This document shows positions 11,230-47,435 of a DNA stretch of 47,886 nt, in pieces. The first letter of the stretch is position 1. Every line of letters begins with the position of its first letter. Below the pieces are notes generated by a model that saw nothing but the letters and a program-made list of their open reading frames with translations, was not told the origin of the DNA and ran no database searches. Source of the DNA: Microcoleus sp. CAWBG506. Its GTDB lineage: Bacteria > Cyanobacteriota > Cyanobacteriia > Cyanobacteriales > Microcoleaceae. The stretch spans positions 1 through 47,886 of the forward strand of contig JAHREW010000048.1 in assembly GCA_020883125.1 (NCBI GenBank), given 5' to 3'. Position numbers and translations under genes: made by a program.

Positions 11230-11301
11230 ATGGCAAAACCCGCTTTTTCCGAAAGTTATTTTGGGAGACTTATTAATAAAATGATCCGTCATGCAGTTTA
11301 A
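11230..11301 (+). CDS. Possible 23-residue leader peptide overlapping the kinase start
   Basis: ATG 11230 opens a frame (MAKPAFSESYFGRL...) that ends with TAA at 11299-11301, so it overlaps the kinase ATG at 11291 by 11 bases in another frame. The kinase start has no Shine-Dalgarno at normal distance, so its translation could depend on ribosomes finishing this short frame. It may instead be chance, or the trace of a longer kinase N-terminus lost by frameshift. Confidence 0.35.
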   Translation: MAKPAFSESYFGRLINKMIRHAV

Positions 11302-17300: not shown

Positions 17301-17752
17301 AGCTCTACCAATCTCAAACTTTGGCAAAAATTGATGCTGCGGACTACATCCGCAATTTAACCGCTAATTTATTCCAGTCTTATACAGTAACCGATACCAA
17401 AATTAAATTGCAGGTAGAAATCGACCGAATAGAATTAGATATTGATACGGCCATTCCTTGTGGTCTCATCGTCAATGAACTTGTATCTAATTGTTTGAAA
17501 TATGCTTTTGTTGGTAAAAGAAATGGCTACATTCACATTAAATTTGTCTATCATCACTCCCCTGAATTTCTCCTAATGGTGAGGGACAATGGAGTAGGAT
17601 TACCACCGGGTTTTGACATTGAAGAAAGCGACTCTTTGGGGCTACAACTGGTTTATAACTTGTCTGAACAACTGGGAGGTGAATTGCAGATATTTACTGA
17701 AGGTGGCACCTGTTTTCAGATTACTTTCGATCTGCCAAAGGCGCGAAATTAA
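11291..17752 (+). CDS. Giant soluble histidine kinase: 4 CBS, GAF, 11 PAS (one LOV), HisKA_2, HATPase
   Basis: This 2153-residue protein has no membrane segment. Four CBS motifs fill about residues 15-320 (e.g. IADVMRQPQVVFKL, VAEVMKTQILSV) and would bind adenine nucleotides. A coiled coil (320-385) and a GAF domain (385-535) follow. Eleven PAS units (about 550-1935) can be counted by their DIT(E/D)RK ends, with a second coiled coil near 1160-1210. PAS 8 (about 1445-1562) is a LOV domain: GRNCRFLQG with photoactive Cys1496, then NYRKDGTMFWNELS and GIQTD. The kinase core is HisKA_2 (EIHHRVKNNLQ, probable phosphoacceptor His1959) plus an ATPase domain (VNELVSNCLKYAF, DNGVGLPPG). It starts a four-gene signalling block. 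The likely output is phosphotransfer to a separate receiver. Confidence 0.93.
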   Translation: MQFKDLPNLERAIDRHPITVAPQTSLLEVLRLMGQVDGEDSFWFPQATVIESDDEPESNQRMSLLHNGCVLVVEESSNHRTTSLAGIFTARDAVCLAASGITCLSPIKIADVMRQPQVVFKLSEAQDIFTPLLIFRQHQISYLPIVDDRDRLLGIVTPESILETLKSANLLKLGTVAEVMKTQILSVPRHTSVLKIAQLMVQNLASWALITDNLREGVEYEIAEIDRIIPAGIVTEHKIVQAQALGIDLAQTPASAIMRRPGTHLNPEDSLWRACQQMQQEQMQPLLVSQFRENVHDPLLGIVAMVDLLGLLEPAQIYKRLKRAQQSIRQLKIENTELLRSRNAELETQVEQRTAELQAALTKVEQQAKQAALINQIVQVMRDTMVVDQILQTTVDQLHESLNVNRCVILEENSHREICITYCSEATPEAEQLLGMHCPILNRYKQQLIHGHQVVFSKIDDSLTPDLQVIANQFGVRAMLITPLIYQQQFLGAICLHQCDREREWTDSELEFVKTISTHCAIAIHQAQLYQQVQTELAERERAEAALQTQKEFLRNVIDTSPHAIFVKDCEGRYVLVNQSLAELLGTTVENLTGKKDAEFIDNPAQVERFLADVREITSTLQPKFFLEETVTTPTGEIRYFQIVKKPLLSADSTSCQILGVATDITERKIAEQALRESEQLFRLMADTAPVFIWMSGTDSMRNFFNQSWLDFTGKTLEEQLNNAWTSALNPHDLHQCLDIYLSSFNTRQKFLMEYRLRNADGEFRWILDRGVPRFTPSGDFAGYIGSCIDITERKVAEDSLQQAKEQLQAVLDAVPGFISWIDADGKYLGVNRHLADSFNLIPKDFIGKELGFMQNSPLFTEFMIQFIRSSDIDASHVIESQIDGRSRHYLLAAHKYQQETAAVCVGIDITERKQAEESLRESQIKLSAIFNNTFQFTGLLQLDGTVVEANQTVLSFGGLQLADVVGIPLWETRWWTISTATQERLKGAIAYAASGNFIRYEVDVWGVGNTIATIDFSIKPIKDEVGEVVMLIAEGRDITELKQAQNDRDRFFNNSMDLMAIAEFNGCFKLVNPACTEILGYTTNELEGKSFLEFIHPDDLQTVHNVWVQEKNTGHAVRDLEIRFRCLNGTYKWLSWNSIPFPEEGISYGFARDITARKAAEKAWELLNEELENKVEERTAQLMTANHQLHQEIRERQQFEAALRASQEQLQAILDYSPAVIYLIDLENRYMLVNHKFEKLFEVTTEQVVGQSIYTQSSVKIADYFASKNRLVVESGKPIKSEETIPLKDGIHTYITIKFPLKDALGVTYAVCGISTDITDRQIAEETLRRQLAAVEAATDGIAILNAQGEYIYLNASHNQIFGYDSSSSLLGKTWRELYHQEEIERFDREIFPLFWQTGKWQGEAIGKRRDGTKIAQEISLTLIQEGGIICVCRDISQRKVAEETSRIRDRAITASSNGIIISDARLPDHPLIYVNPAFECITGYSAAEAIGRNCRFLQGTETNQPELDQLRSAIKEQKNCVVILRNYRKDGTMFWNELSISPIYDAHQNLTHYIGIQTDITDRKLAEKALWATQDRLKYLLSCSPAVIYSTKSVGDCCLTFISENITSLVGYEARQFLADSSFWNRHIHPEDAPRVRANLQSLIEEGSNIQEYRFLHQDGTYRWLYNQTKLVRDVEGKPREIVGYLADISDRKQAESERSRLVAILEASTDFVGMSDIKGNILWNNNQMKQTIGIPTNQEVLQCDIPEYHPQWALEIIQNEGLPSANRNGVWVGETALLRKDGTEMPVSQMIIAHKSPTGTVEYYSTLMRDITALKQAETALQQAKDQLQAVLDAVPGSVSWIGSDLRYLGVNQHLAATFNLAPDAFVGQDIGFLKNSANFAQFMGKFMIVPDSATSQIIDLKIDDSTRNYLVVAQKYQQGAAAVSVGIDITDRKQAESKLLASLKDKEVLLKEIHHRVKNNLQIISSLLKLQSGYIKDREALTMFIDSYNRVRSMAMIHEKLYQSQTLAKIDAADYIRNLTANLFQSYTVTDTKIKLQVEIDRIELDIDTAIPCGLIVNELVSNCLKYAFVGKRNGYIHIKFVYHHSPEFLLMVRDNGVGLPPGFDIEESDSLGLQLVYNLSEQLGGELQIFTEGGTCFQITFDLPKARN

Positions 17753-17830
17753 ATCTAAATTTTAACTAATGACCTCTTAAATTAAATCTCATCGTCAATA
17801 TCTATTTCAGAAATAGCTGAACATAATTCT

Positions 17831-20800
17831 ATGATCTATCGTGTCAATCAAAAAAAATCCAGTTTAGATTCGTCGCTATGGCAAAAAAAATTAATCAAAC
17901 TATTTGCTAGAATTCACCAAAAAACTCAGCGGGTATTTACTTTGCGAGCGCTACCCATGATAGTGGCGGTGAGTATTTGTGCGATTACTATGGTTCTGTG
18001 GCACACTCTACTGACAAACGATCGCCACTCTATTGAAAAAGCAATTAACTTAGAAGCAACCAATACCAAAATCCTGATCGCCCACGAGGTACAAGAGCAA
18101 ATATCCGGGCTAGTTAACATTGCCAAGCAGTGGGAAAAATCAGGAAAGCCATCCAAAAAAATATGGGAAGCTCAAGCAGCCTTTTATCTTGAGAACCGCA
18201 AAAGTTGCCAAGCCATACAATGGGTAGACCCCTCCTTCAATGTATCCTGGAGTCTACCAGTTATAGGCGATCGAACCGAACCTAACTTCAACTTGGAACT
18301 CAAGCAGCAAATAGCACAAGCAATTGCCGCCAAAGAACGGAAAGTAATAGTCAGCCATAGCATTAATCTCAAGCAGGGGGGCAAGGGATTTTTGGTATAC
18401 GTTCCGATTGTCAGGGAAGACAAATTTGCAGGTTTTATTGTTGGTATTTTTAGATTTAAGGAATTATTTAATATTTTATTTGACTCATTAAAATTAAGTT
18501 CGGAAGTTACTTACGCGCTGTCAATTTATGATAGAAGTGAAACAATTTATAGCTCTATATCCGAAGGAGATTTAGCAGCGAATAGCTGGTCAAAAACCAC
18601 CAGGATACAACTGTATAACATAGCATGGCAAATCCAGGTTTTTCCGCTTCAAAAATCCATAATAAAAAGACAATCTCCTCTTCCCGAAATCATCTTATTT
18701 TGCGGATTTATGATGGCTGGGCTGGTAGCATGGACAGTCTATCTAACTCAGCTTTCGCGACGGCGGGCACAGACATTTGAAAGGGTGAATCAGAGACTAG
18801 GAAAAGAAATTTCTCAGCGTCAGCGGGTAGAAGAAAGACTAAAAGAAACCACTCGCTTGCAGCGGGCAATTTTGGACAGCGCCAACTACACAATCATTTC
18901 TACAGATGTCAACGGCACTATTCTTACTTTCAATCCAACTGCCGAACGATTGTTGGGGTATAATGCTTCTGAAGTAATTGGAAAAACCACCCCTCTGCTT
19001 TTCCATAACTTTAAGGAAATATCCAAGCACGCTGAAGATTTGTCCCAAGAATTGGGAGTGATGATTGAGCCGGGATTTGAAGTTTTTGTTACGAGAGCGC
19101 TCCTGGGAAAAATTGAAGAGAGTCAATGGACTTACATCACCAAAAATATTACAAGCACAACCCAAAATAGCATCCCAACAGAGATTACTAATTTCTTAGA
19201 AAATGACAACCGTTCCTATTTTCCTGTGCTGCTCTCAGTGACAGCTTTGCGCGACTTAGAAGCTAACATTACCGGATTTTTGTTTATCGGCAGTGACATT
19301 ACTCAGAGAAAGCAAGCCGAGGCATCCTTGCAGCGCCAACGCGAGTTGTTAGAAGTCACCCTTGCTAGTATCGGTGATGCAGTGATTGCTACTGACAAAC
19401 TAGCTAATATTACCTTTATCAATCCTTGGGCACAAGTGCTGACGGGATGGCCCGCACAGGAAGCTTTAGGACGACCAATTGACGAAGTATTTTGCATGAT
19501 TGACGAGCGATCGCGACAAGAAGTCCAAAGTCCTGTCCAACAGGTACTGCAAACAAAAGTAGCCTTTGAATTAAGCGATCGCACTCTTTTGCGACCCCGA
19601 TCTGGTCAAGAAATACCGATCGACCAAAACTGCACCCCCATTTTCCGCAATACCGGCTCACTTTACGGAGCAGTATTAGTATTTCGCAATACCACCGTCA
19701 GACGACAGGCAGAAAATGCCCTGCGAGAAGCAGAAGCCAAATATCGCAACATCTTTGAAAACGCTGTGGAAGGCATTTTTCAAACCACCCTCGACGGTCA
19801 ATTCATCAATGTCAATCCTTCCCTAGTAGCCATTTATGGCTATCAATCAGCAGCCGATTTAATGCAAAATATTACTAATATTAAAACACAAGTTTATGTC
19901 GATCCAAACCGTCGCGATGAATTTGTCAGCTTGATGCAGCAGCACGATGCTGTGTTCCGGTTTGAGTCGCAAATTTATCGTCAAGACGGCAGGAAAATCT
20001 GGATTTCAGAAAATGTTCGCATAGTCCGCGACTCCGAGGGTCAACCGCTTTATTATGAAGGCAGTGTGGAAGATATCAGCCAGCGCAAACAAGTCGAAGC
20101 AGCATTACTAGAAAGTCAAGAACGCTGGCAGTTAGCAGTGCGTGGCAACAATGACGGTATTTGGGATTGGAATGTCAAAACCAATCAAACCTTTTTCTCG
20201 CCTCGTTGGAAACAAATGATAGGTTATGAAGACCACGAAATTGCCAATCATTTTAGCGAATGGGAAAAACGAATACATCCAGAGGATGTTCCCCGCACTA
20301 TGCAAACAGTTAAAGAGCATTTTGCTCAGCAAACACCTTTTTATATCGTAGAACACCGGATTCTCTGCAAAGATGGTACATACAAATGGATTTTGGCCAG
20401 GGGTCAGGCGATTTGGGATGAAGCAGGAAACCCCGTGCGGATGACCGGTTCCCATACAGATATCACTCTCGCCAAGCAAGCTGAATCAGCCCTCAAAGAA
20501 AGTGAAGAATGGTTCCGCAATTTAGTAGAAACTAGCAGCGATTGGGTTTGGGAAGTAGATGCCAACGACTTCTATACTTATGCCAGTCCCAAAGTACGCG
20601 AGCTCTTAGGTTATGAACCTGAAGAACTGCTAGGCAAAACTCCCTTTGACTTGATGCCACCCGAAGAATTAGCACGGGTTGCTAACTTTTTTTATGCCAT
20701 TGCAGCAGCGCAAGAGCCATTTAATTGTGTGGAAAATACCAATATTCACAAAGACGGTCATTTAGTTGTACTCGAAAGCAGTGGTGTTCCCATCTTCAAT

Positions 20801-21520
20801 GCCGATGGCAGCTTTCGGGGTTATCGTGGCATGGATCGAAATATTACCGATCGCAAACGGTCAGATTTCCAACTCAGAGCCTCCCTGAAAGAGAAAGAAG
20901 TGCTCCTGAAAGAAATTCACCACCGAGTTAAAAACAACTTGCAAGTCATTTCCAGCCTGCTGAAACTGCAAGCCGGATATATCGACGATGAAAACGTGCA
21001 AAGCCTGTTTACAGAAAGTTACAATCGTGTCCGTTCCATGGCACTGATTCACGAAAAACTCTATCAAACCTCTAATTTAGCAAAAATTGATGCTGCTGAC
21101 TATATTCGCAACTTAGTAGATAATTTATTTCGTTCTTACAACATTTCTACACAAAAAATTGACTTGTGCTTAAAAGTTGATAAAATTTTGCTAGATGTCG
21201 ATACCGCAGTTCCTTGTGGATTAATCATCAATGAAATAGTTTCTAATGCCCTAAAGTATGCTTTTACCAATCAAAAATCTGGAGAGATATCTATTCATTT
21301 TATCAAAAACGACCGCGACTATCTATTGCTGTCCATCAAAGACAACGGTACGGGACTGCCTCCAGATTTTAATTTAGAAGAATCGGAATCCCTAGGTTTG
21401 CAGTTAGTTGTTAATTTAACTGAACAATTAGAAGGAACCCTCAACTATGGGAGCAATGGCGGGACTTGTTTTAAAATTTTATTTAAACCGACAATCAGGG
21501 GTGATACCCAATCTTGGTGA
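17831..21520 (+). CDS. Membrane histidine kinase: CHASE, 5 PAS, HisKA_2, HATPase
   Basis: This is a 1229-residue protein. Two membrane helices (about 40-61 and 284-305) flank an extracytoplasmic CHASE-like sensor domain that usually binds small ligands (SIEKAINLEATNTK to GFIVGIFRFKELF). The cytoplasmic part has five PAS units ending at about 488, 620, 748, 877 and 1005, then HisKA_2 (EIHHRVKNNLQVISSLLKL, probable His1031) and an ATPase domain (INEIVSNALKYAF, DNGTGLPPD). The kinase core is closely similar to that of the upstream giant kinase, so the two are paralogues. The gap between them is 78 bases without a visible terminator, so co-transcription is likely. The ligand is unknown. Confidence 0.92.
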   Translation: MIYRVNQKKSSLDSSLWQKKLIKLFARIHQKTQRVFTLRALPMIVAVSICAITMVLWHTLLTNDRHSIEKAINLEATNTKILIAHEVQEQISGLVNIAKQWEKSGKPSKKIWEAQAAFYLENRKSCQAIQWVDPSFNVSWSLPVIGDRTEPNFNLELKQQIAQAIAAKERKVIVSHSINLKQGGKGFLVYVPIVREDKFAGFIVGIFRFKELFNILFDSLKLSSEVTYALSIYDRSETIYSSISEGDLAANSWSKTTRIQLYNIAWQIQVFPLQKSIIKRQSPLPEIILFCGFMMAGLVAWTVYLTQLSRRRAQTFERVNQRLGKEISQRQRVEERLKETTRLQRAILDSANYTIISTDVNGTILTFNPTAERLLGYNASEVIGKTTPLLFHNFKEISKHAEDLSQELGVMIEPGFEVFVTRALLGKIEESQWTYITKNITSTTQNSIPTEITNFLENDNRSYFPVLLSVTALRDLEANITGFLFIGSDITQRKQAEASLQRQRELLEVTLASIGDAVIATDKLANITFINPWAQVLTGWPAQEALGRPIDEVFCMIDERSRQEVQSPVQQVLQTKVAFELSDRTLLRPRSGQEIPIDQNCTPIFRNTGSLYGAVLVFRNTTVRRQAENALREAEAKYRNIFENAVEGIFQTTLDGQFINVNPSLVAIYGYQSAADLMQNITNIKTQVYVDPNRRDEFVSLMQQHDAVFRFESQIYRQDGRKIWISENVRIVRDSEGQPLYYEGSVEDISQRKQVEAALLESQERWQLAVRGNNDGIWDWNVKTNQTFFSPRWKQMIGYEDHEIANHFSEWEKRIHPEDVPRTMQTVKEHFAQQTPFYIVEHRILCKDGTYKWILARGQAIWDEAGNPVRMTGSHTDITLAKQAESALKESEEWFRNLVETSSDWVWEVDANDFYTYASPKVRELLGYEPEELLGKTPFDLMPPEELARVANFFYAIAAAQEPFNCVENTNIHKDGHLVVLESSGVPIFNADGSFRGYRGMDRNITDRKRSDFQLRASLKEKEVLLKEIHHRVKNNLQVISSLLKLQAGYIDDENVQSLFTESYNRVRSMALIHEKLYQTSNLAKIDAADYIRNLVDNLFRSYNISTQKIDLCLKVDKILLDVDTAVPCGLIINEIVSNALKYAFTNQKSGEISIHFIKNDRDYLLLSIKDNGTGLPPDFNLEESESLGLQLVVNLTEQLEGTLNYGSNGGTCFKILFKPTIRGDTQSW

Positions 21521-27845: not shown

Positions 27846-27925
27846 TGGTTATTGGTTATTGGTTATTTGTTAGTGGTTATTTGTTATTTGTTGTTTTATT
27901 AACTAATAACCAATAACCAATTAAA
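27844..27925. repeat. AATAACC heptamer repeats between truB and the RTX gene
   Basis: Repeats of ggttatt/aataacc run from the truB start codon to the RTX gene stop, in both orientations, so they can fold into a hairpin (GGTTATTGGTTATT with AATAACCAATAACC). The same family occurs at 10528-10620. It supplies the whole truB leader. Confidence 0.8.
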
Positions 27926-28676
27926 GAATGAAGTCAGCCTGACTAATAGAAGTGCGGGGAACTCCGAACAGAGTAGCCAGAGTTTCCTTAGTGCTGGTAA
28001 GCTGAATAATTGTACTTGGCGTAGTTCCGCTAGTACCAGCGACAATTGTGAGTTCGGCAAAAGTAAGACCGGCGGCCAAGCGAATGCGATCGACACCATC
28101 AGTAAAATCTGTAATCAAATCCGATTCTGACGAAAAACTGAGCGCAAAGGTATCATTTCCCAGCCCCCCAGTTAAAGTATCTTTACCTTTATCGCCGGAA
28201 AGACTATCATCACCAGCACCCCCAAACAAAGAGTCATCGCCAAAACCCCCAAAAAAGGTGTCATTGCCCGCGCCTCCCAACAAAGTATCGTTGTCTTGGT
28301 TGCCAAATAGCAAGTCATTGCCATCATCTCCCGTTTGGGAATCAGCACCTTTGCCACCATAAAGAGTGTCGTCGCCTTCATTACCCAACATAGTATCGCG
28401 ACCGCTACCGCCGAACAGACAGTCATTGCCAGCGTCGCCACGGATCGAGTCGTCGCCGTCTTCGCCGTAAATGAGATCGTTACCTCCTAAGCCAAAAATT
28501 GTATCCGGGCCTCCCAAACCGAAAATAGTATCAGCACCGCTAGTACCTGTGAGGGAATCTGGGCCGGAGGTGCCAATCTTGCCAATCCGGGACACTGTTG
28601 TACCACCGGGGGTGGGGGTGGGTGTGGGGGTTGGGGTTGGTTTGGGAATTGGTTTCAAAGGGGCTGCTGGTGGCAT
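27921..28676 (-). CDS. RTX-type calcium-binding repeat protein
   Basis: This 251-residue protein starts with a Pro/Thr tract (PKPTPTPTPTPTPGG). About twelve glycine/aspartate nonapeptides follow (GGNDLIYGEDGDD, GGAGNDTFFGGFGDD), which form a parallel beta-roll that binds Ca2+. The C-terminal part (LITDFTDGVDRIRLAAGLTF, ending QADFIL) is typical of type I secreted RTX proteins, where it holds the export signal; no N-terminal signal peptide is present. No catalytic domain is seen, so it is a small surface or secreted protein of unknown role. No ABC exporter gene is nearby. Confidence 0.85.
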   Translation of the reverse strand: MPPAAPLKPIPKPTPTPTPTPTPGGTTVSRIGKIGTSGPDSLTGTSGADTIFGLGGPDTIFGLGGNDLIYGEDGDDSIRGDAGNDCLFGGSGRDTMLGNEGDDTLYGGKGADSQTGDDGNDLLFGNQDNDTLLGGAGNDTFFGGFGDDSLFGGAGDDSLSGDKGKDTLTGGLGNDTFALSFSSESDLITDFTDGVDRIRLAAGLTFAELTIVAGTSGTTPSTIIQLTSTKETLATLFGVPRTSISQADFIL

Positions 28677-34995: not shown

Positions 34996-36291
34996 CTATT
35001 TTCCTTCCCAAATCAAATCTAAACGATCTTGAGATTCTTGTAAGGCTTTTTTTACAGGTTGTCCTAGCATAGAAGCTTCGATAGCGCGACCTAAATTTTG
35101 AGAAATGCGACTATATCCCGCGATAATAGGACGCGAGCCGGCAACGGACATTTGATCTACAAAAACTTTAATCACAGGTTTTCGTTTGATAAATTCTTGA
35201 TAAGCTTGACTCTGCGCTGACTTCATATTAGCGGGTAAAAATCCAGTGCCAATACTCCATTTGGTTTGAAATTGTTCGCTCAAAGCATACTCCAAAAACT
35301 TGAGGGCAGCCTTCTGTCTTTCGGGAGTAGTTTTCATCACAAATAATGTCCCAGTTCCCGTGACTGTAGCTGGTCGAATATCGATCGGCACTGGAAAAAC
35401 CCCGTAATCAACATTACTTTTCATAATATATGTCCAAGGGCCAGTAATTTGCATCGCGACACGGCCGGAAATAAAATCATCTTCTTCATAACCTCTTTCT
35501 GGCATTGATAAAGTCGCGGAACCATCTTTTAATAAATCTTGCCAAAATTGTATAGCCTTAATCGCACCCGGATTCATTAAATTAGGGCGATTATTTTCGA
35601 TTATTTGACCATTGGCGCTTAGTAAAAAGGGAAACCAAGTGAAAGTAGTCCATTCTCCTTTTCCAAAAGGAATTAACATTCCATACTGTTCTGGTTTCCC
35701 ATCAGAGTCTTTATCTACAGTTAGTTTTTTCGAGACTTCCCTTAATTCTTCCCAAGTTTTAGGTAATTCGGTGATTCCGGCTGCTTTAAATAATTTAGGA
35801 CGGTAAAAAATCCCTATAGAACTGGTAGAGATAGGCACTGACCATGTATGACCGTTTAATTGAATTTCTTCTAGAACACGGGGATACAGTTCTGACTTCA
35901 CTGGCAATTTGTCTAACCAATCTTCTAGGGGAACAATGGCATCTAAATTAACAAATTGACCTGTCATTTGGGGGTAAAAAGAAAGGATATCCGGTGGAGA
36001 ATTACCCACCACAGAGGTCAGAATTTTGGGTAATTGCTGGTCTAGTTCACCAGCGAAAATAGATTCTACCTGAATGTCATGATTTTTCTGATTAAATTCT
36101 GCGACTAATTTTTGGAATACATCTCGGTTGACAGGAGGGTTAATTCCTTGCCATAGGGTTAAGTGAATGACTCCATCATTTTTGTGACTGACGGTTTGGC
36201 ATCCTGTAAAAATAAACAAACCTACAGCGAGGATAATCGCGATTAAAGCACTTTTTTTGGGTGAAGCGATCGCCTTTATTTTCTTAATCAT
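34996..36291 (-). CDS. ABC transporter sugar-type solute-binding lipoprotein
   Basis: The 431-residue protein has a lipoprotein signal peptide ending in the lipobox IFTGC, so it is anchored outside the cytoplasmic membrane. The mature part is a family 1 solute-binding protein (HLTLWQGINPPVNRDVFQKL, SPPDILSFYPQMTGQFV, ITGPWTYI), probably for a sugar or oligosaccharide. No permease or ATPase gene is adjacent. Its ATG overlaps the stop of the upstream glycosyltransferase gene by eight bases (ATGATTAA), so the two are translationally coupled. Confidence 0.9.
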   Translation of the reverse strand: MIKKIKAIASPKKSALIAIILAVGLFIFTGCQTVSHKNDGVIHLTLWQGINPPVNRDVFQKLVAEFNQKNHDIQVESIFAGELDQQLPKILTSVVGNSPPDILSFYPQMTGQFVNLDAIVPLEDWLDKLPVKSELYPRVLEEIQLNGHTWSVPISTSSIGIFYRPKLFKAAGITELPKTWEELREVSKKLTVDKDSDGKPEQYGMLIPFGKGEWTTFTWFPFLLSANGQIIENNRPNLMNPGAIKAIQFWQDLLKDGSATLSMPERGYEEDDFISGRVAMQITGPWTYIMKSNVDYGVFPVPIDIRPATVTGTGTLFVMKTTPERQKAALKFLEYALSEQFQTKWSIGTGFLPANMKSAQSQAYQEFIKRKPVIKVFVDQMSVAGSRPIIAGYSRISQNLGRAIEASMLGQPVKKALQESQDRLDLIWEGK

Positions 36292-36949
36292 TATTTAAAT
36301 CAATATTTGCTGTAAAACTCTTACTCACACTGTCTTCCGCTCTCGTGTAAATATAAGTACGAGGTTGAGAAATTTTTACCGTGTTGAATTTTTTTTGCGC
36401 CCTTTCCCATAAATCGGTATCCTCTCCATAGGAAATATTTTGAAACCCTTTTAATTCAAACAAAACATGACGTTTGAGAAAAAAAGTAGCACCCATAACA
36501 CACTCTTCAGCATTAATTAGTTTTCCTGGTTGATAATAATCAGCTACAAAAATATCTCCATCCGTCTCAAAGCCCCCCGCAATACAATCCACTTCAGGAT
36601 TAGCTTTCATATACTCCAAACGGGATTCTAAGTGATTTGGTTTATATTGATCGTCGCTATCTAGAAAAGTAATGTATTTACCGAAAGATGCTTGAATACC
36701 CGCATTTCTGGATAATCCCATTTTCCGGTTTTTATGCTTAAAATAGCGGATATTTTCATGTTTTTCCAGAAACAAATTAACCGTATCAAATGTATCATCT
36801 TGACTGCCATCATCTATAATAAGCAACTCCCAATCTTTAAAGGTTTGATTGAGTACGCTATTAATGCAATCGCTCAAATATTTAGATCGATTGTAAGTAG
36901 GTACAATAATTGATATTTCTGGGATATAAGAAAAACTCAGAGGACTCAT
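36284..36949 (-). CDS. Family 2 glycosyltransferase, short form
   Basis: This 221-residue GT-A enzyme has ISIIVPTYNRSKYLSDCINS, IIDDGSQDDT, and the DXD-type motif FLDSDDQY. Acidic residues of SYGEDTDLWERA follow. There is no C-terminal membrane segment. ATG 36949 (MSPLSFSYIPEIS) is preferred; ATG 36994 would add 15 residues. The stop overlaps the start of the solute-binding lipoprotein. Base composition is rich in A and T compared with the housekeeping genes, which may hint at transfer, as is common for glycan genes. Confidence 0.88.
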   Translation of the reverse strand: MSPLSFSYIPEISIIVPTYNRSKYLSDCINSVLNQTFKDWELLIIDDGSQDDTFDTVNLFLEKHENIRYFKHKNRKMGLSRNAGIQASFGKYITFLDSDDQYKPNHLESRLEYMKANPEVDCIAGGFETDGDIFVADYYQPGKLINAEECVMGATFFLKRHVLFELKGFQNISYGEDTDLWERAQKKFNTVKISQPRTYIYTRAEDSVSKSFTANIDLNND

Positions 36950-37055
36950 AGGTGTAAAAAATGATAAATTGTATATTTTGCAAGATGTTGGCAATGGAAA
37001 AATTTATAGCTATCATATCATATCATATTTTAATCTAAATATCAAGCAATCATAT

Positions 37056-37095
37056 CAGCAAGGTAGCTAGTAATATATACCCTAGCTACTTTTGC
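37056..37095. terminator. Near-palindromic hairpin GTAGCTAG / CTAGCTAC
   Basis: The arms at 37063-37070 and 37082-37089 pair perfectly around an 11-base loop. AGCAAG and TTTTGCT extend the symmetry with one mismatch. On the plus strand a T run follows. It lies between the methyltransferase 3' end and the glycosyltransferase start and so probably ends the methyltransferase transcript. Confidence 0.6.
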
Positions 37096-37102
37096 TAATT
37101 TA

Positions 37103-37222
37103 ATGGTACATGATAAGATTAAGACCGTAGTCCTAATCCGGGTCTTGCGTGAGCGAGGGATGATTTATGGCAATTTTCCTGCTACGCTGTCTGGATGTTT
37201 ATTTAACTATGCAATCCTTTAA
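37103..37222 (+). CDS. Doubtful 39-residue frame
   Basis: From ATG 37103 a 39-residue frame (MVHDKIKTVVLIRVLRERG...) runs to TAA 37222 and overlaps the 3' end of the methyltransferase gene on the other strand. It has no ribosome site and I do not recognise it. It is probably chance or a fragment. Confidence 0.12.
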   Translation: MVHDKIKTVVLIRVLRERGMIYGNFPATLSGCLFNYAIL

Positions 37223-37760
37223 TTTCGATGAGTAACAATTCGCTGCCATCAATCCAATGAAATACCTCCTTTGAAACAACATCATAAGCTTCAAAGTCTT
37301 CGATACACCATGAACTTATGTGTTCTTCGTGTGGGTTATTGAACACTTCTTCTTGTGGCCACAATCCCAAGGGAATATTAATGATAATTTTTTCCCCTTT
37401 TTTGATGATTTTTTCAATTAAAGCGACGGCTTCATCTTTATGTAGATGTTCAAGAATATCACCAACAATGATTAAATCATAGTTAGTCACGTCATCAATA
37501 ACTTCTTTTGCGTCTCCTATGAAAATCTGGTCATACAAAAACCGATGAGTATCAAGAATATAAGGCTCAAAAATCTCAATGCCATCTATCTTAATACGCC
37601 ATTCCGATTTGTTGTATCTTCCTTGCCCAATTTCCAGATATTCTCGTAACAGAAATCCCCATTTGCCAAAACCAATACCAATATCTAGTACAGATTTAGG
37701 AGAAATGTCCCATATTTTCTCAATTGTAGGAGAAATATGTTTCCAACTCGATGACGGCAT
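37203..37760 (-). CDS. Class I SAM-dependent methyltransferase
   Basis: The 185-residue protein has a Rossmann-type SAM site: motif I VLDIGIGFGKWGFLLRE, an acidic end of strand 2 (KIDGIEIFEP), motif IV DLIIVGDILEHLHKDEA, and a following strand KIIINIPLG. It probably methylates a sugar or small molecule, which fits the adjacent glycosyltransferase, but the substrate cannot be told. It lacks a target-recognition domain. Start ATG 37760 (MPSSSWKHISPTIEK) fits the fold. Confidence 0.85.
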   Translation of the reverse strand: MPSSSWKHISPTIEKIWDISPKSVLDIGIGFGKWGFLLREYLEIGQGRYNKSEWRIKIDGIEIFEPYILDTHRFLYDQIFIGDAKEVIDDVTNYDLIIVGDILEHLHKDEAVALIEKIIKKGEKIIINIPLGLWPQEEVFNNPHEEHISSWCIEDFEAYDVVSKEVFHWIDGSELLLIEIKGLHS

Positions 37761-37855: not shown

Positions 37856-38062
37856 TTATCTGGTTCCCGTGTCAAGTATGAGTTGCTTCCAGATGCCTAT
37901 GCTTAAGCTACCCGATATGTCAAGTATAATTTGTACTACCTCAGATGAAATTAGGTCGATTTTTCTACCGTCCCCTAATTGTAAAGTAATGCTAAAGAAA
38001 TCCAGACTTCTGAGTCTATTTGTCTCCGATCCTAACTCTGTGAGATTACCAAGGATTTCCAA
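37856..38062 (-). CDS. Possible 68-residue ORF overlapping the adhesin-CHAT stop
   Basis: The frame starts at ATG 38062, 17 bases inside the 3' end of the giant adhesin gene. It reads [13 protein letters not shown], then [19 protein letters not shown] and a hydrophobic stretch [17 protein letters not shown]. The beta-strand-like pattern looks more protein-like than most chance frames, and the overlap would allow translational coupling. I do not recognise it. If real it could be a partner or inhibitor of the CHAT protein; if not, it is random sequence. It lies in the 37761-38045 gap, which otherwise shows nothing. Confidence 0.3.
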
Positions 38063-41000
38063 TCATGGTGAAACTACTCCAGTAGTAAGGATGAGAGAAA
38101 TTGCGGTTTGATTGCTGTAAATTAGGAGGTAAATTTAAAGTGGCATCGGTTGTGACTAACTGTCGGTTTGTCATCCTAATTTTACCAGCAATCATTGCCT
38201 GTTGAGCAAGTTGCAGAGCCTCTGTCTTAATTATCGATCCTCGTCGAAGTTGGTTGTAAAATTCACTCATCAGCCCCAAAGTGCCTCCATCATCAACATA
38301 CCACAAACTCCCTAGGGCAGATTTAGCGCCGGATTTGACAGCTAAACCTCCAAAACCTAATTCTGCTTCCCGATCGCCTAAAGCCGTTCTACAAGCACTT
38401 AACACCAACAATTCCACTTGGGGATTGCGCCAATTCAAACTTTCCATGCGATCTAGCTGCAATTTATAATTCCACATTTGAATGTAAGAATTGCTGGATT
38501 TTCCAGATAGGAATTCAGCATGAGTCGCTAGGTGAACGATCCGAAAGCCTCCCTGTTTGTGTTGGGAATTGAGATTATCTATAGTGAAAGTCGAATTGAG
38601 AAAAGATTGTCCGCTCCACTCACCATTAATTACCTGTAATTCTAATGGTACACTGGGCAAGGGTTTTTGTTCAACAAACTCCGATCTACCCATTGCTAAT
38701 AAGGAAGCACTCCTCACAGATTGATAATCGGTATTGGTATTGCTGAAACTGGGAATGAGACTAAAATTATATTTTTCAATCAAGAAGCCTTTCCCATCGT
38801 GTAAAGCCGCAAATGGTAGGCTTCGTAGCCCTGGATCTACTGATAGCAACAGGGTATGAATGCCAAATTTTTCTAAATCAGGCTCTAGCTGTGAGAACAA
38901 CCATTTGTATAGTTGTTGGGCGGGTGGCAAATAGGTGGTAGTGTTGATTTTTCTCGGATTAGTAATTTCATCCCGTAGTTGCTTGACGACGGGGAATAAA
39001 GCTGCTCTGTTGGCTGCGGGTACGCTGTAGCGAATCGGTTGTCCTAGGGGAGGAATTAAGATTATTTCTAATTGTTCGTATCGGGAAACTAGATAAATAA
39101 TACCAGACCGCCTACCTGTTTTTTGTTGGATGGTTTGTAAAGTGTTTTGAAATTTATTAATCATCACGTTTTGCTCTGGGATGTTGGCGGTGACACCCAG
39201 ATGTTCTAAAAATTCTTGATTTCTAATTTTTTCGATTTCCCGGACTGTTTTTTGTAGGTTATTTTGTTCAAAAATGCGATCGGGAGACGGAACATATCCC
39301 AGAACTTGAGATCCATTAGGGTTGACAATTGTTGATGGTGTTGAGTCTTTTGGAGGTATAACACCACTGTGGGACAACCGGCTGGTGATACTTGGATCGA
39401 TGGTTAAAACTCGATCGCCTATACCGCCAGGATTGTCTAAGGGTGAGATTTTGCGAGGTTGAGAGTCTTCTGGATTGAGGGTGGAAGATTCTGGTTTGGG
39501 TTTCGGTGTGGGTGTGGGTGTGGCTGTGGATGTGGCTGTGGTGATTGGTGTTACGGGTACTTCGACAGATTCTAGGGTTGATGTTACCTGCTGAATTGCC
39601 GGCTGGTTGATGACAGTTACCCCTGGATTTACCGGCTGGTTTATTACTGTTTTTTCCTGATTTTCCTGTGGATTTATGACAGTTATCAGTGGAGTTTGAG
39701 TTGAATTTATGACAGTTATCGGTGGAGTTTCAGTCGGAATTGTGAGAGTTATCGGTGGAGTTTCAGTCGGAATTGTGAGAGTTATCGGTGGAGTTTCAGT
39801 CGGAATTGTGAGAGTTATCGGTGGAGTTTCAGTCGAAATTGTGAGAGTTATCGGTGGAGTTTCAGTCGGAATTGTGAGAGTTATCGGTGGAGTTTCAGTC
39901 GGAATTGTGAGAGTTATCGGTGGAGTTTCAGTCGGAATTGTGAGAGTTATCGGTGGAGTTTCGCTGGGAGTTGGAGTTACAAGCGCCGTTGGAGTTGGAG
40001 TTTGATTGGGAGTCGGAGTTATCGCCGACGTGGGAGTGGGAGTGACACTGGGAGTGGGAGTTTCACTGGGAGTGGGAGTTATCGCGGGCGTGGGAGTGAC
40101 ACTGGGATTGGGAGTGGGAGTGACACTGGGATTGGGAGTGGGAGTTATCGCGGGCGTGGGAGTGACACTGGGATTGGGAGTGGGAGTGACACTGGGATTG
40201 GGAGTGGGAGTGACACTGGGATTGGGAGTGGGAGTGACACTAGGAGTGGGAGTCACACTGGGATTGGGAGTGGGAGTGACACTAGGAGTGGGAGTCACAC
40301 TAGGAGTGGGAGTGACACTAGGAGTGGGGGTGGGATTGGGAGTGGGAGTCACACTAGGAGTGGGAGTGACACTAGGAGTGGGGGTGGGATTAGGAGTGGG
40401 AGTGACACTAGGAGTGGGGGTGACACTAGGAGTGGGGGTGGGATTGGGAGTGGGAGTGACACTAGGAGTGGGGGTGGGATTGGGAGTGGGAGTGACACTA
40501 GGAGTGGGGGTGGGATTGGGAGTGGGAGTGATGGTGGCATCATCAGTATTGAATGCAATATTACCTACATTCTGTGAGCCTGGAAAGGACTGCGATAGAA
40601 TTGTAGACTGTCCAGTTATGATTGCAGCAGCCGTGCCATTGATAGTAGCATCCCCCACCACAAAGGGTTGAATTGGGGGGCCACCATCGCCTCCTGCGTG
40701 TCTAATGGTGATATTTCCCCCACCGATGCCACCAGCAGTGGAAATACTAGCAAATCCTGTGGGCGAAAGTAGAGTTGGGAAAGAATCTGTAGCGCGGAAA
40801 AATCCGCCTGTGGAGGATACAAAAACAGTCCCACCGGTGCCGCTAGTGCCGCCTTGGGCATTGATGAAACTGACTTGAATATCGCCGATCGGATCTAAGG
40901 AAACATTACCACCATTTCCGACTATACCGCTGGTATTGATTTGTCTTGCGGTAATAGAATCTTTGGCAACTACGGTGATATTACCGCCAATATTTCCTGA

Positions 41001-44000
41001 TGTGGTTAAATTTTTGACATTGACAGTGCCGTTTGGACTCAAAAGTGCGATCGCCCCGCCATTTCCAGAATTAGAAGCAGTAATATCTCCCAAAACATTG
41101 ATATTTCCGGTACTATTTACAGTCAAACTTTGAGCGTTTATTGAGGAATTGGCTGTTACATTACCAGCATTGGCGATCGCCACATTTGCTAGCTGTCTCG
41201 TAGCGCCAACTGCTGCACCGAAAGTGACGCTGCCAGTACCAGCCGCGACATTTAGATCGAAACTGCCATTAACACTGTCGATCGCCCCTCCAAAGGTAAT
41301 ATTGCCACCTCCAGAACTCAATTTAGTATTTTGGCTTAAGCCCAAAGCGCTGTTGAGCGTAATTCCGCCATTATTGGTGGTAACATTACCAGCTAAATTA
41401 GTATTGGTTGCCGTAACACTCAAACCAGAAAGTGCTGTGGTTTGTCCGATATTGCCTTGCAATACCACATTACCTGTACCAGCATCAATGTTCAAACGGC
41501 GATCGCCATCGATCGCACCTGTGACACTCACATTACCACCACCACTACTGATAGCCACATCCTTACCGACTGTGACATTCCCCTTAATAGCGATACCCTG
41601 ATTGGTGGTAGTGATACCACCATTCAAATTCAAGGTGGGAGTATTGAGACTGATGCTGCTGTTGTCATTGCCGGTAATATTGCCATTAAGGGCGATCGAA
41701 CCACTTTTCGTTTGAATATTTACCGGATCGGAAAAACTAAGATTATTAGGAATAGTCACATTCCCACTGCTATCCGATCGCCCAATAGTAATCGAACTAA
41801 AGCCATTTTGAAGCAAACTCATTTCCGATGCAGTCAAATCCAAAGCGCTAGTATTATTATCAGTCCCACCAACAACTATATTTTGTCCCACAGTTGCAGG
41901 TTGCAGCGTTAGCACATTAGTACCAGAAACTTTCCCAGAAAAATCAATTTCGCCAGCGGTGAGATTCAGAGGATTATTCCCGGCGGATAAAGTTGAACCA
42001 AAAGCAATCCTGCCATTTCCCACTCCCCAATTCACAGGACCATTTAATGTCACCGGGCCACTAAAATCAATATTATCATTAGTCGTGGTGATATTTCCCT
42101 TCAGCCCCACACTTCCCAGGCCATTTTGAATCAAAGCACCGTCTAAATTAAGATTATTACCAATATTCACATTCCCGGTATTGCTGATAGTTAGCGTACC
42201 GTTATTGGTGGTAGTTACACTCTGCAATAAATTAATAGTATCACCGGAAATACCGATATTTCCCGCCACATTGACTGCTGCATTAGCAGTGATATTTTTC
42301 CCGCTAATCTGCAACCCGCTTACAGAACTAGAATTGCCGATCGCCCCAGTGAATGTCACATTACCAGTACCACCATTTACGGTCAAATTGCTATTGCCAT
42401 TAACAGTATCATTGAAAGTAATACTGCTACCGGCTAGAGTGGGGTTGTTGGCTATGGTTACTGCATCTCCATAGGTCTGACTGGTGGTGGTTGTCACATT
42501 GCCATTGAGTAGAGTTGGACCGCCAGTATTCGTCGTCAGACTATTAGCTGTAACAGCATTAAAGGTGGTTGTACCGGTAGTATTGGCGGTGATATTTCCT
42601 AATGGTGTGGAATTGCCGATCGCCCCAGTGAATGTCACATTACCAGTGCCACCATTTACGGTCAAATTGCTATTGCCATTAACGGTATCATTGAAAGTAA
42701 TACTGCTACCGGTTAGAGTGGGATTGTTGGCTATGGTTACTGCATCTGCATAGATCTGGCTGTTGCTGGTCACATTGCCATTGAGTAGAGTTGTGCCGCC
42801 AGTATTCGTCGTCAGACTATTAGCTGTCACAGCATTAAAGGTGGTTGTACCGGTAGTATTGGCGGTGATATTTCCTAATGGTGTGGAATTGCCGATCACC
42901 CCGATAACATCAATCTTTCCCGTACCTGTTTCTAAGGTGAGATTCCCACTGCCATTAATGTTATTATTAAACAGAATATTCCCGCCTGCTGCATTGCCTG
43001 TTCCCACCAAGACATTATTGCCAACTAGGGCATTGCCGTTAATTGTAATATCTTGAGATTTGGTAGTAATATTGCCATTCAGGTTATTAGTGGTAGCATT
43101 GAGAGTAATCGAAGCATTATCAGTTCCAGAAATTGATTGATTGGGATTTACTAAAATATTGCCTTGAGTATTGAAACTCACAGGATCTTGAAAAGATATG
43201 GGCAAATTGTCTACAGTAATATTCCCGGTTGTAGTGTTACTGCCGAAAACAATTTTACTAAAGCCATTACGCAAGGAGGATAAAAGCTGTGGTCCTAAAT
43301 CGATCGCCCCTAGATCATCAGCAAGTCCTTTTTGGAAGCGAATGCCGACATTGGGCGCAGACGGTACAATTGACAAAGTACCTTGACTCTTGACCGAATC
43401 TACTCCTCCCGAAAAGCCGATCTCATTGCCACTAATGGTAATATTTCCAGTACCGGACAATCCCTGGGCATCAATCACATTTACCCCAACTTGATTGGGA
43501 GTTGCGATCGCCATATTTCCGGCAGTACCAGCACTAGAACTAGAGTTCCAAATTGCACCTGCACTTGCCACAATGTCGCCTGTTTTGCCGCTGAGAGTGA
43601 TGTTTCCACCATTGCCAGCAGTAGAACTAGAATTAAGATTACCCCCGTTAATCTTGTTGGCACTGAGTGCGATCGGGCCTCCATTTCCGGTAGTAGAACT
43701 TGTATCGATCGCCCCTGTGGAAGTCGTTGTAATCGTACCATTATTGCTGGTCAAGGCGATCGCCCGTCCGGGATTTGTCGTATCGCCAGTAGTAATATCA
43801 CCTGTAGCTGTAATCGCGATGGCGATCGGACTGGTAAGATTACGAGAATTGACTATGTTGAGGGAACCCAAAGGCACTGTCCCCCCAAGAGCCCCGTTGA
43901 GATTAATAATGCCTGTTCCCGTAGTCAAAGTTAGATTGCCACCACCATCAACAGTTCCCCCAAAATTAATATTACCAGCATTAGTTAACCCTGTATTCAG

Positions 44001-47000
44001 AGCGATATTAGAATTAGTAGCGAGAGAGACTTTGCCACCAAAGATAATATTCTGTTCGTTGGTGATAATATTAGAATTAGCTAAAAAATTGGTCGTTGGA
44101 GCATTAAAGGTAATTGAAGCATTGTTTACACCTGTAATGTTGCCACTGACTGCAATGCTGCCCCCTTGCATGGTGACGGGTAAACTAAAAGTAACACCAG
44201 CGGGGTCAATGGCGATCGCACCAGTACCATTTGTGCGCCCGACAATCATTTGGGAAAACCCATTCAATACCGGAGGTGCGAGTTCCGCTGCACTCAAATT
44301 CAAACGAGAGTCCGCAGTATTACCACCCACACTAATATCTAAGCTGGGAGTCAATGGCTGCAACTGGATAGTCCCAGTACCTTTAACTTGACTTTTTCCT
44401 GATAGTTGAATTTCATCCCCAGTCAAAGTCACATTGCCACCTAACTGCGCATCAATCGCACCACCAGCCAGGTTAATTGGAATGGAATTGTTATTAGCCT
44501 TTCCCGTGAGGCTAATATTACCAGTTCCCGTAGCTTGCACCGTTACCAGTGGGGCTGCGGGGAATGTAACGCCGTAACTGCTAAATGCCGTCCCGACACC
44601 AGTACCAGTTAAACTAATATCTCCATTCTGGGATTTTACTGTGGCTGAGTTGATCCAAATCCCGGAATTAGTACCTGTCCCTGCACTCCCCGTCCCCGTC
44701 AGCGTCACCTTTCCCAAGCCTGCGGTTTGGACTGTAGCACCACCATCTATATATATACCCTCGTTCACAGTCCCAGTCCCACCACCAGTACCCGTCAAGC
44801 TGACATTTCCAGAGGAGGCTTTGACAGTACCTGGTCCAACTAATATGCCTCGATTACCATCAGTCCCATTTCCTCCCGTACCGCTGAGAGTCAGACTCCC
44901 AGTGCCTGTAGATTCTACCACCCCAGACACTGAAATGCCCGTGTTGTTGCCCACACTGCCTTTACCTGTTCCAGTGAGAGTGACATCTCCATTTTGCGAT
45001 CGCACTATGCTGGGATTATCAATATTTATCCCCTGATTACTATCCGTCCCATTTCCTGCGGTACCGATGATAGTAAGAGTCCCGTTCCCCTTCGACTCCA
45101 CTGTAGTGTTGTTGATCTTAACGCCAGTATTTTGAGTTAAAGTTCCACCACCGTTACCAGTCAGGTTGATACTGCCCCCAGCCGATCGCACAGTGCTACT
45201 ATTAACAGCGATCCCTGGATTATTAAATGTGCCATTCCCGCCAGTACCGTTGAAAGTAATACTCCCTGTCCCGATCGACTCCACTGTACTGTTATTAATG
45301 TTTATCCCCGTATTTTGGCTAGCAGTGCCACTACCAGTACCTTTGAGGGTAATATTGCCATTGAGCGATCGAACTGTGCTGGTATTATCCATCAAAATCC
45401 CTACATTGCTAGTGATACCATTCACACCAGTTCCAGTCAGACTAATGCTACCTGTTCCCGTGGATTCCACCACTGCACTGGAAGTTAAATAAATACCTTC
45501 TCCAACCCCCTTACTGCTACCAGTCAAAGTAATATCCCCATTGACTGAACTTATCCTAGGGCCACGCAAAACTATTCCCGAACTATTAACACTGCTACCA
45601 CCAGTTCCATTCAGAGTAATACTCCCGATCCCAGTAGTTTGCAATGTGCTAGCAGCATCCACGGAAATACCAATATTGGTTGCCGTATTTCCTGCAACAC
45701 CATTCAGGTTAATGTTCCCACCTCCGGCATTAATTTTGCTGCCCTGGATATCGATTCCATTCCCCAAGGTAGCATTCCCCTGACCATTACCCAGGAAATT
45801 TCCCCCATTGGTATTAATCGTAGAACTCAATATCTTGAGACCACCTCCAGCATTCAGATTAATATTGCCTCCCTGAGTTGTGATATCATTATTAATAGTA
45901 ATATTATTATTAGCATTCAGAGTCAGAGAATTCTTACTAATCCAAGAAACTGGTGCGCTAACTGTAATATCACCTACACTACCAAAATTAGATGCAGTGG
46001 AAATAGTCACACTTGCATTATTTAGCTGTGTTTGCAGCGTCCCATTATTAATCGTAGAAGTAGCCGCAAAGGGAGTAAATACTCCCCCTAATGTACCGCC
46101 ACCTGCATTCGCACCTGTGCTAATAGTGATATCAGTAGGATCTAACAATAAGGTGCCAGCAATCCCAAATGGCGATCGCAAATCAACCGAGCCTTGAAAA
46201 TCCAGCGATTGCTTCCCCGATACTTCCGCAAAACCCCCATTCCCCGACACCAAGCCACCTCTGGCTGTAATATTGCCATTAAAACGAGTAGTTTCATCCG
46301 CCCAAACTATAACTCGCCCGCCATTCCCATTACTCACAGCATCAGCATTAATCGTCGAATCAGCACTCACAAAAGTCCGCGCAGCATTGGGCACCGTCCC
46401 CAAACCCTGATAATCTCCCCCAATCAGTACATTACCGCCACCATTAACACCAGAAGCATTAATATTGCCCCCAATAACTGCTACTTTATCGCCTAAAATA
46501 CTTACAGTACCCCCAGTGTTACCAGAGACATTGAGAGTGCCAGAGGCGATCGTCGTTCCCGGACTCATCGGCACAGCCACATTCCCTGTCAACACCACCT
46601 CACCATTCAGATTTACCACCAAACCCGTAGCCTGTTGCACACCTTTTCCAGTCAACAATTCGGGCAAAGATAACACCGATTGCGTCAAATTATTCGGCAA
46701 CAAACCCTGATTAGCCGTCGGCTGCACTTCCAAACTCAACAAATTTCCTGCTTGAGAAATCCGCACCAAATTTTGACCTGGTACTGCTGTCATCGAAATC
46801 TGACCACCGGGCGCATTCAACTGACCAGTATTCACCACAGTACCGCCCATTAAACTCAAGTTTTGACCATTTTGAACGCTCAAATTCCCAGCATTAACAA
46901 TACTTCCCGGTTGCAAATTAGTAAAAGCAAAACTATTAGGATTGCCGATTAAAGTCGCCCAATTATTATTGCCGATCGCATTAAACCACTGATTCCCCCC

Positions 47001-47435
47001 AAAACCCATCCCCGTCGCCGTATTAGCATTAAAAGAACCAGGCACATTCAAGCTAGCACCAGGCCCAAAAATCATCCCCGAAGGATTCATCAAAAATAAA
47101 TTAGAATTCCCACCCGTAACTTGAATCAATCCATTAATTAACGAAGGATTACCGCCATTAATCCGTCCCAGAATATTTTGGATATTGGGATTAGTCAAAA
47201 AATTAGCAATTTGACCTTCACTGAGATTAAACTGAGTAAAACTGTGAAACAGATTAGCCCGATCTCCGCTGAAAGCTCCCCCAGTAATATCGTAGCGATT
47301 GCCATTTGTAGTAACCTGTGTATTCGTACCGTCTGGTGCTGGGGTGATTGGTTGTGCACCAGCAGGTAAAGCCACTGCACTCAGCCACCCAATTGTGAAT
47401 AACCATCGGATAAAATGCAGTTTATTGGCGTTCAT
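38046..47435 (-). CDS. Giant two-partner-secretion adhesin with C-terminal CHAT protease domain
   Basis: The 3129-residue protein has a signal peptide ending PAGAQ (about residue 28). A TPS/haemagglutinin N-terminal domain (about 28-270, with [14 protein letters not shown]) follows, which a TpsB outer-membrane pore would recognise. A long beta-helix of Gly/Asn/Thr-rich repeats occupies about 270-2290. A Pro/Thr tract ([12 protein letters not shown] type, about 2297-2477) and a [11 protein letters not shown] repeat (about 2490-2580) come next. The C-terminus, from about 2720, is a complete CHAT domain: [19 protein letters not shown], His2972 in HLATHAEF and Cys3015 in [12 protein letters not shown] form the caspase-like dyad. 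CHAT proteins are cysteine peptidases related to caspases and separase. The gene is intact with no frameshift. No TpsB gene is in the window. Confidence 0.92.
39715..39961 (-). repeat. 33-bp tandem repeat in the adhesin linker
   Basis: gttatcggtggagtttcagt begins at 39715, 39748, 39781 and so on to 39946: seven full 33-bp units and a partial. They encode the 11-residue unit [11 protein letters not shown]. Units are nearly identical at DNA level (one has cgaaatt for cggaatt), which points to recent expansion. Confidence 0.92.
40005..40545 (-). repeat. Pro/Thr-rich minisatellite in the adhesin linker
   Basis: Short units such as ggagtgggagtgacactagg repeat with variation and encode [12 protein letters not shown]. 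The plus strand is almost pure G/T/A here, a strong strand bias. Copy number is likely to vary between strains. Confidence 0.9.
42332..42890 (-). repeat. Two near-identical 93-residue beta-helix units
   Basis: The sequence aattgccgatcgccccagtg starts at 42332 and at 42611, with a divergent third boundary at 42887: unit lengths 279 and 276 bases. The two units differ at few positions ([14 protein letters not shown] versus [15 protein letters not shown]), so they are a recent duplication inside the adhesin. Confidence 0.85.

Follow-up and report, generated by a model that had tools for sequence, protein, structure and literature searches.

Within a 47,886-nucleotide stretch of DNA from Microcoleus sp. 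CAWBG506 (contig JAHREW010000048.1, hereafter the window), we identified a gene whose product is best explained as an orphan exoprotein (TpsA) of two-partner (type Vb) secretion (TPS) that carries a protease from a CHAT lineage dedicated to this pathway, its proteolysis being predicted from sequence. The window is the entire contig C43 of an 81-contig, 6.03 Mb draft genome, and the gene, which we refer to as TPS-CHAT, is one open minus-strand frame (38046-47435) encoding 3129 amino acids. The initial annotation had described such a single intact frame with a TPS domain, a complete CHAT domain, a long Pro/Thr linker and the residues His2972 and Cys3015, and each of these held up: the frame is open throughout, both domains score above their Pfam cut-offs, threonine and proline make up 30.6% and 29.1% of linker residues 2301-2640, and the two predicted catalytic positions are occupied by the histidine of an HLATHA motif and the cysteine of an LSACRT motif.

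The TPS domain matches its family with 136.8 bits against a cut-off of 33.5, while the CHAT match spans profile positions 2-289 of 289 (E 3.5e-61); beyond these two, no Pfam family exceeded its cut-off in the protein, and peptidase C14 (p20) was not found. The N-terminus looks by eye like a textbook Sec signal, and sequence relatives of the TPS domain in the PDB are two HxuA constructs, the adhesin 2odl and EtpA. The shaft of about 2050 residues is rich in glycine, threonine, asparagine and serine (G 17, T 14, N 13%). A periodicity test on it gave no signal above shuffles (188 of 200 shuffles were as strong or stronger); the beta-helix of about 2000 residues proposed in the initial annotation is a putative fold that its composition, taken with the TPS domain, would fit. 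A signal-like N-terminus, a TPS domain, a long repetitive shaft and a TpsB in the genome are shared with the TpsA exoproteins FHA, HxuA, HMW1, EtpA and CdrA, from which the window protein differs in ending in CHAT and in lying on a contig without tpsB.

The fusion is intact in an ortholog and recurs across cyanobacteria

Genome G099, a single contig from the same genus, has an ortholog that is also intact, with 3022 amino acids, matching ends and 53-69% identity to the window protein across four main segments. Between the two genes, the ratio of nonsynonymous to synonymous substitution rates (dN/dS) is 0.09 around the dyad, 0.15 for the CHAT domain as a whole, 0.17 for signal and TPS domain together and 0.29 for the shaft. 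A linker island of about 35 residues (about 2640-2700) that seemed conserved by eye in 15 rows was considered as a docking or cut site and dropped, given a dN/dS of 0.76 between the orthologs and its disorder in a longer model.

Protein searches queried with the CHAT end of the window protein or that of a paralog returned at least 997 and at least 2932 relatives, respectively, at E 1e-20. Among the matches listed, TPS and CHAT occurred together in 105 of 120 and 97 of 120 (197 different proteins), many of the listed relatives being Planktothrix near-copies. Their hosts include Microcoleus, Planktothrix, Kamptonema and Laspinema, among others, and their source annotations read 'CHAT domain-containing protein', 'filamentous hemagglutinin family protein' or 'Mucin-21'; one relative (P0159) is filed under the name of an Actinomycetota metagenome-assembled genome. 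From a collection of species genomes, we kept the best 80 of 566 confirmed loci, every record of which is named as cyanobacterial, with host names including Nostoc, Trichodesmium, Okeania, Moorena, Scytonema, a Gloeomargaritales genome and Aphanothece. These best 80 comprise 48 loci where a single frame encodes both TPS and CHAT, 25 with a CHAT frame lacking TPS, 6 whose frame is open at a contig start and 1 with no frame (L205), which is left out of all locus counts given below on n = 79. A fusion-type CHAT profile (E 1e-95) found matches, not each a proven fusion, in 96 of 145 class genomes and 57 of 87 genera; the 150 profile matches listed divide into 123 frames of at least 780 amino acids and 27 below 700, and such short fusion-type frames include signal-bearing 'mini-CHATs' such as P0007. 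At one further locus (L113; G195:C1, about 1795413-1796612), a 5616-residue open frame with a C-terminal fusion-type CHAT adjoins a TpsB gene. The open-access literature that we searched holds no description of a TPS-CHAT protein.

The initial annotation had named, as one finding that could undo the fusion, homologues with two separate genes that an assembly error had joined here. The source genome of the window is indeed a draft of 81 contigs, but the chance that two genes were joined by an assembly or annotation artefact is negligible, being refuted by the intact ortholog in one contig and by the recurrence of both domains in most listed relatives, one-contig genomes included.

The modelled CHAT domain has the fold and dyad of a protease

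In a fold search, the model of the CHAT module resembled Csx29 and separase over the whole module, whereas a sequence alignment of the CHAT against the PDB gave no match. The predicted dyad is kept in 240 of 240 relatives (a set that takes in 7 translations from the source genome and many near-copies, and that forms 87 clusters at 90% and 48 at 75% identity of the CHAT tail) as well as in 79 of 79 loci, and it is invariant across 28 aligned rows with a His-Cys spacing of 43, the same as in the Csx29/TPR-CHAT of Craspase. The claim of an intact CHAT protease fold is supported, the model agreeing with solved CHAT and separase proteases and the dyad being kept in all these relatives. To the second refuting condition of the initial annotation, a model in which His2972 and Cys3015 cannot meet, the match over the whole module gives half an answer; in TPR-CHAT, distances of about 3 A (active) and about 7 A (inactive) have been reported for this pair. 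The cysteine is missing from one of 38 CHAT frames found in TpsB regions, a divergent 801-residue CHAT on contig C41 of the source genome. Compared with Csx29, separase and HetF, the window CHAT is signal-bearing and tethered to an adhesin, with no match to a TPR family.

Fusion CHATs belong to a lineage tied to two-partner secretion

A search of the rest of the genome for TpsB, which the initial annotation had proposed, turned up three ShlB-family genes, on contigs C67, C12 and C41. On C41 the order is TPS, TpsB, signal-bearing CHAT; on C12 it is TpsB, a gene that looks Uma2-like by eye, TPS, TPS and a signal-bearing CHAT, and a fusion follows some 4 kb beyond the CHAT gene. The C67 TpsB has no adjoining TPS or CHAT gene within the 12 kb read. 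The same genome holds four intact TPS-CHAT fusions (3129, 1710, 1554 and 888 amino acids), a mini-CHAT and one broken fusion copy on contig C5, this fifth fusion (L043, about 100.4-102.7 kb) being split into pieces in different frames; in all, its 6 Mb contain 25 CHAT matches, or about 4 per Mb. We also noted on contig C1 a CHAT gene of another branch (L045, about 272-274 kb), TGA-interrupted and with a signal-like start by eye.

To place these arrangements in a wider sample, we took the first 80 TpsB loci listed outside the source genome, from 145 genomes, with about 9.5 kb on each side, some regions being short where contigs end. CHAT was present in 27 of these regions, TPS in 39 and a fusion in 7. 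CHAT accompanied TpsB in 24 of 39 regions with TPS vs. 3 of 41 lacking it (Fisher p = 2.3e-7), and the association persisted once the 7 regions with a fusion were removed (17 of 32 vs. 3 of 41, p = 1.6e-5). None of 20 control regions, taken at round-number coordinates of long contigs, contained CHAT, which is unsurprising at about 4 CHATs per Mb; the expectation of a reverse search is the better control. In that search of ten genomes (hand-chosen, mostly with few contigs), 25 of 37 operon-type CHATs had a TPS domain no more than 10 kb away (1.3 expected), compared with 3 of 51 other non-fused CHATs. The search profile (A2) was built from CHATs in TpsB regions and leans towards linked ones, and operon type was defined as rows of at least 345 bits, a cut placed after the gap below it was seen; without the profile's own 3 rows, 22 of 34 operon-type CHATs were near a TPS domain. 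Standalone CHAT frames from the TpsB regions and the source genome's own loci (L113 aside) were signal-bearing in 16 of 23 cases by a crude scan, a rough measure that in one fusion flagged an internal stretch. Among the other standalone frames, 2 are signal-like by eye (L105 and L106), 2 are cut by contig ends and 3 belong to other CHAT branches.

Phylogenies placed the fused and operon-borne CHATs together. In a quick 74-row tree, which had long branches, the operon-type TPR-CHATs neighbour the fusion type with a joint support of 96, apart from other CHATs; in a 60-row repeat without four long rows from the source genome, two short rows and eight near-copies, a branch with support 100/100 separates all fusion-type CHATs, including the mini-CHAT, from the other rows, with L113 and the mini-CHAT labelled as fusion type. 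From the genomic linkage and these trees, we conclude that the fusion CHATs are, as judged from their sequences, members of a CHAT lineage linked to cyanobacterial two-partner secretion. The two types differ at one further position: operon-type CHATs have a second invariant cysteine (column C87 of A2, residue 528 of P0005; 13 of 13 rows), which fusion-type rows of the 28-row alignment mostly lack and which is possibly a redox switch or a disulfide partner.

A tree of the TpsBs points to a candidate transporter for the window protein. Because 11 of 12 fusion-adjacent TpsBs (a number that takes in L113, counted without its TPS end) share the side of the C67 TpsB, vs. 36 of 75 others (p = 0.005), this orphan gene is our candidate. 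Its side of the tree has 47 rows and support 97, with the C12 and C41 TpsBs opposite. The fusion-adjacent TpsBs do not form one clade (10 changes, a number as low in 45 of 500 shuffles), and we rely on the two-sided split alone.

Cysteine content suits an exported enzyme

Cys3015 is the only cysteine among the 3129 residues. Cysteine occurs at 0.90 per 1000 amino acids in 196 relatives of at least 1500 amino acids, at 2.48 in 33 non-fused TpsAs (drawn from L038-L127), and at 10.4 in 12 further window genes (77 cysteines in 7388 residues). That the catalytic cysteine is retained where others were lost is in keeping with a cysteine enzyme that is exported and functional. The ends of the proteins differ too: a cysteine occurs among the last 20 residues in 31 of 33 complete non-fused TpsAs, vs. 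0 of 239 CHAT-ended proteins (which include two standalone CHATs of the source genome and proteins without a TPS match), and likewise 31 of 33 have at least two cysteines in their last 130 residues. C-terminal disulfide anchoring occurs in HMW1 and CdrA, and CHAT appears to sit where other TpsAs have a possible anchor of this kind.

Export of the protein, as the initial annotation had proposed, is supported by its signal-like N-terminus, its TPS domain, the TpsBs in the genome and the near-absence of non-catalytic cysteine. That such proteins are made receives weak support from a proteomics table for an aqueous Nostoc extract (PMC9895726), which lists a 10-residue peptide of a 'CHAT domain-containing protein'; this 10-mer recurs in four frames of our set, including the TPS-CHAT relatives P0142 and P0144, where it lies at residue 193, in the TPS-domain region.

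A proposed protease for TpsA adhesins

We tentatively favour, at somewhat less than even chances, a role for the CHAT domain as a protease of the envelope or cell surface by which the TpsA that carries it, or a sister TpsA, is matured or released, with activity, substrate and location all deduced from the comparisons above. The initial annotation had offered self-processing, attack on prey or neighbours, and controlled cell death as options. Processing of self, or of a sister TpsA, is the best supported of these because the same CHAT lineage that is fused to TpsAs also stands as a signal-bearing gene beside tpsA/tpsB, and it is preferred over neighbour attack for this reason and because CHAT stands in place of the cysteine-bearing TpsA end; for neighbour attack and cell death we found no positive evidence here. 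Occurrence either fused or adjacent is a pattern that one would expect for an enzyme and the protein it cuts, and it favours this reading.

In the mechanism that we envisage, Sec would take the TPS-CHAT protein to the periplasm, and TpsB, for which the orphan tpsB on C67 is a candidate, would thread the shaft outward with the N-terminus first. The CHAT domain would arrive last and work in the periplasm or at the surface, making one or a few specific cuts by which TpsA shafts are matured, anchored or released. Fusions would be cut in cis, probably within the disordered linker or close to it, and their CHAT would replace the cysteine-bearing C-terminal segment of non-fused TpsAs; in operons CHAT would cut in trans, as LapG does for CdrA. 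A broader and still more tentative proposal is that these CHATs constitute a 'third partner' of two-partner secretion, i.e., a caspase-fold protease supplied in trans (secreted TPR-CHATs by tpsA/tpsB, whose TpsAs end in a segment with a cysteine pair) or in cis (fusions, with the protease where that segment would be). The fusions would then be self-maturing or self-releasing surface filaments with a protease active in the envelope, and the operon branch may be under redox control by way of its second cysteine.

There are precedents for such processing. LapG of Pseudomonas aeruginosa cuts the periplasmic tail of the TpsA adhesin CdrA (PMC5422565; PMC4694147) and resembles the role proposed here in being an envelope cysteine protease that controls a TpsA adhesin; LapG is a transglutaminase-like cysteine proteinase, and the window module has the CHAT fold instead. 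In Bordetella, FHA is released by SphB1, a subtilisin autotransporter encoded outside the fha locus (PMC5422565), and the likeness is again the proteolytic maturation of a TpsA, by a protease of a different kind.

Several observations weigh against processing of TpsAs. No cleavage has been observed and no cut site was found. Contig C43 contains no tpsB, ending 451 bp upstream of the fusion's start codon, and none was found near the G099 ortholog in 20 kb, including 1.9 kb upstream. More generally, only 4 of 79 fusion-type loci have a tpsB nearby and most lack one; fusions beside tpsB do occur, in the 7 of 80 TpsB regions noted above. Twelve of the 37 operon-type CHATs have no TPS gene in their vicinity, and some may serve other functions, while 15 of 39 TPS-bearing TpsB regions are without CHAT in the stretch fetched. 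Finally, the fusion branch includes standalone mini-CHATs without TPS.

Alternative roles

The alternative that survives best, itself unlikely, is that the CHAT is a surface-displayed protease for outside proteins (matrix, prey, competitors, phage or nutrients), tethered by the linker to an adhesive shaft. Against it, the sister branch is Sec-signalled without a TPS domain, for which the periplasm rather than the outside would be the expected location, and the characterised CHAT relative Csx29 cuts one specific partner, Csx30, at one place (PMC10028731).

Rather improbable is a role in filament signalling or cell death, in which the shaft would sense contact and the CHAT would cut an envelope target of the same cell. 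No conserved partner gene lies directly downstream across the 79 loci, a comparison of downstream genes only, and the family also occurs in records of Gloeomargaritales and Aphanothece, which are not known to form filaments.

We consider it improbable, too, that the CHAT serves mainly as a structural cap, plug or binding domain with proteolysis not its main role. A domain folded at the C-terminus might by itself halt export and hold the shaft in place, and the peptidase role is predicted only; the universally kept dyad and the dN/dS of 0.09 around it speak against this, with cysteine otherwise nearly absent.

Finally, the initial annotation had compared the protein with CdiA-type contact-dependent inhibition proteins, and a CdiA-like contact toxin, whose CHAT would be a delivered effector of inter-cell competition, is very improbable. 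CdiA and BcpA share with the window protein TPS export and a C-terminal effector position, and caspase-like processing and toxin domains have been described in a survey of polymorphic toxins (PMC3482391). In its row for type V systems, the same survey lists HINT as the sole processing protease and does not name cyanobacteria. The likeness to CdiA proved positional only: the window protein is without a conserved downstream gene, a variable C-terminus or a detected pre-toxin family (none at E 0.1 in Pfam). A same-strand open reading frame of at least 60 amino acids begins within 400 bp downstream in 29 of the 79 loci, 69 of which have more than 1 kb of DNA downstream, and the largest set of related downstream genes has 4 members, by eye apolipoprotein N-acyltransferases. 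The genes after the four intact fusions of the source genome differ from one another, and the 185-amino-acid gene after the window frame, which has no Pfam match and looks like a methyltransferase by eye, is missing at the orthologous locus of G099. The C-terminus is moreover constant across the relatives found, in searches that were themselves queried with the CHAT end. For want of a conserved downstream gene and a variable C-terminus, we rejected the CdiA-like toxin.

Feature coordinates and other genes in the window

Table 1 Features of the TPS-CHAT gene, in window positions
Feature	Position	Strand	Basis
TPS-CHAT fusion gene, 3129 amino acids, stop included	38046..47435	-	Open reading frame, Pfam, intact ortholog
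Sec-type signal peptide, residues 1-27 (AGA|Q)	47355..47435	-	Judged by eye
TPS secretion domain PF05860, residues 36-243	46707..47330	-	Pfam E 1.6e-39; PDB sequence relatives
G/T/N-rich shaft, residues 244-2299; putative beta-helix	40539..46706	-	Composition
Pro/Thr-rich linker, residues 2300-2714	39294..40538	-	Composition; model confidence (predicted local distance difference test, pLDDT) <50 at 2633-2714 (modelled part)
CHAT module, residues 2715-3129, N-terminal helices and CHAT	38049..39293	-	Models
CHAT domain PF12770 (clan CD), residues 2837-3127	38055..38927	-	Pfam
His2972 codon, predicted catalytic	38520..38522	-	Alignment, conservation
Cys3015 codon, predicted catalytic, sole Cys of the protein	38391..38393	-	Alignment, conservation

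Elsewhere in the window, two adjoining giant multi-PAS histidine kinases (2153 and 1229 amino acids) occupy 11291-21520 on the plus strand and are followed by two response-regulator/histidine-kinase genes, and a 251-amino-acid protein with RTX-type calcium-binding nonapeptide repeats is encoded at 27921-28676 on the minus strand. Between a conserved gene at 34472 and TPS-CHAT lie three minus-strand genes (34996-37760) for a solute-binding protein, a glycosyltransferase 2 and the 185-residue protein mentioned above, and this whole three-gene stretch is missing at the orthologous locus of G099.

Implications

The CHAT proteases known so far are mainly switches inside cells (separase, HetF and Craspase), and gingipains (RgpB and Kgp) belong to another family and use another secretion route than the window protein. 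Against this background, one CHAT lineage appears bound to an export pathway. TPS operons apparently do not include the genes of TpsA-processing proteases (PMC5422565), and if our reading is true, the cyanobacterial loci would be an exception to the rule that such genes lie outside them, and TpsA processing would become testable in cyanobacteria. It would also offer a possible function for proteins annotated as 'CHAT domain-containing' or 'filamentous hemagglutinin' in mat- and bloom-forming genera.

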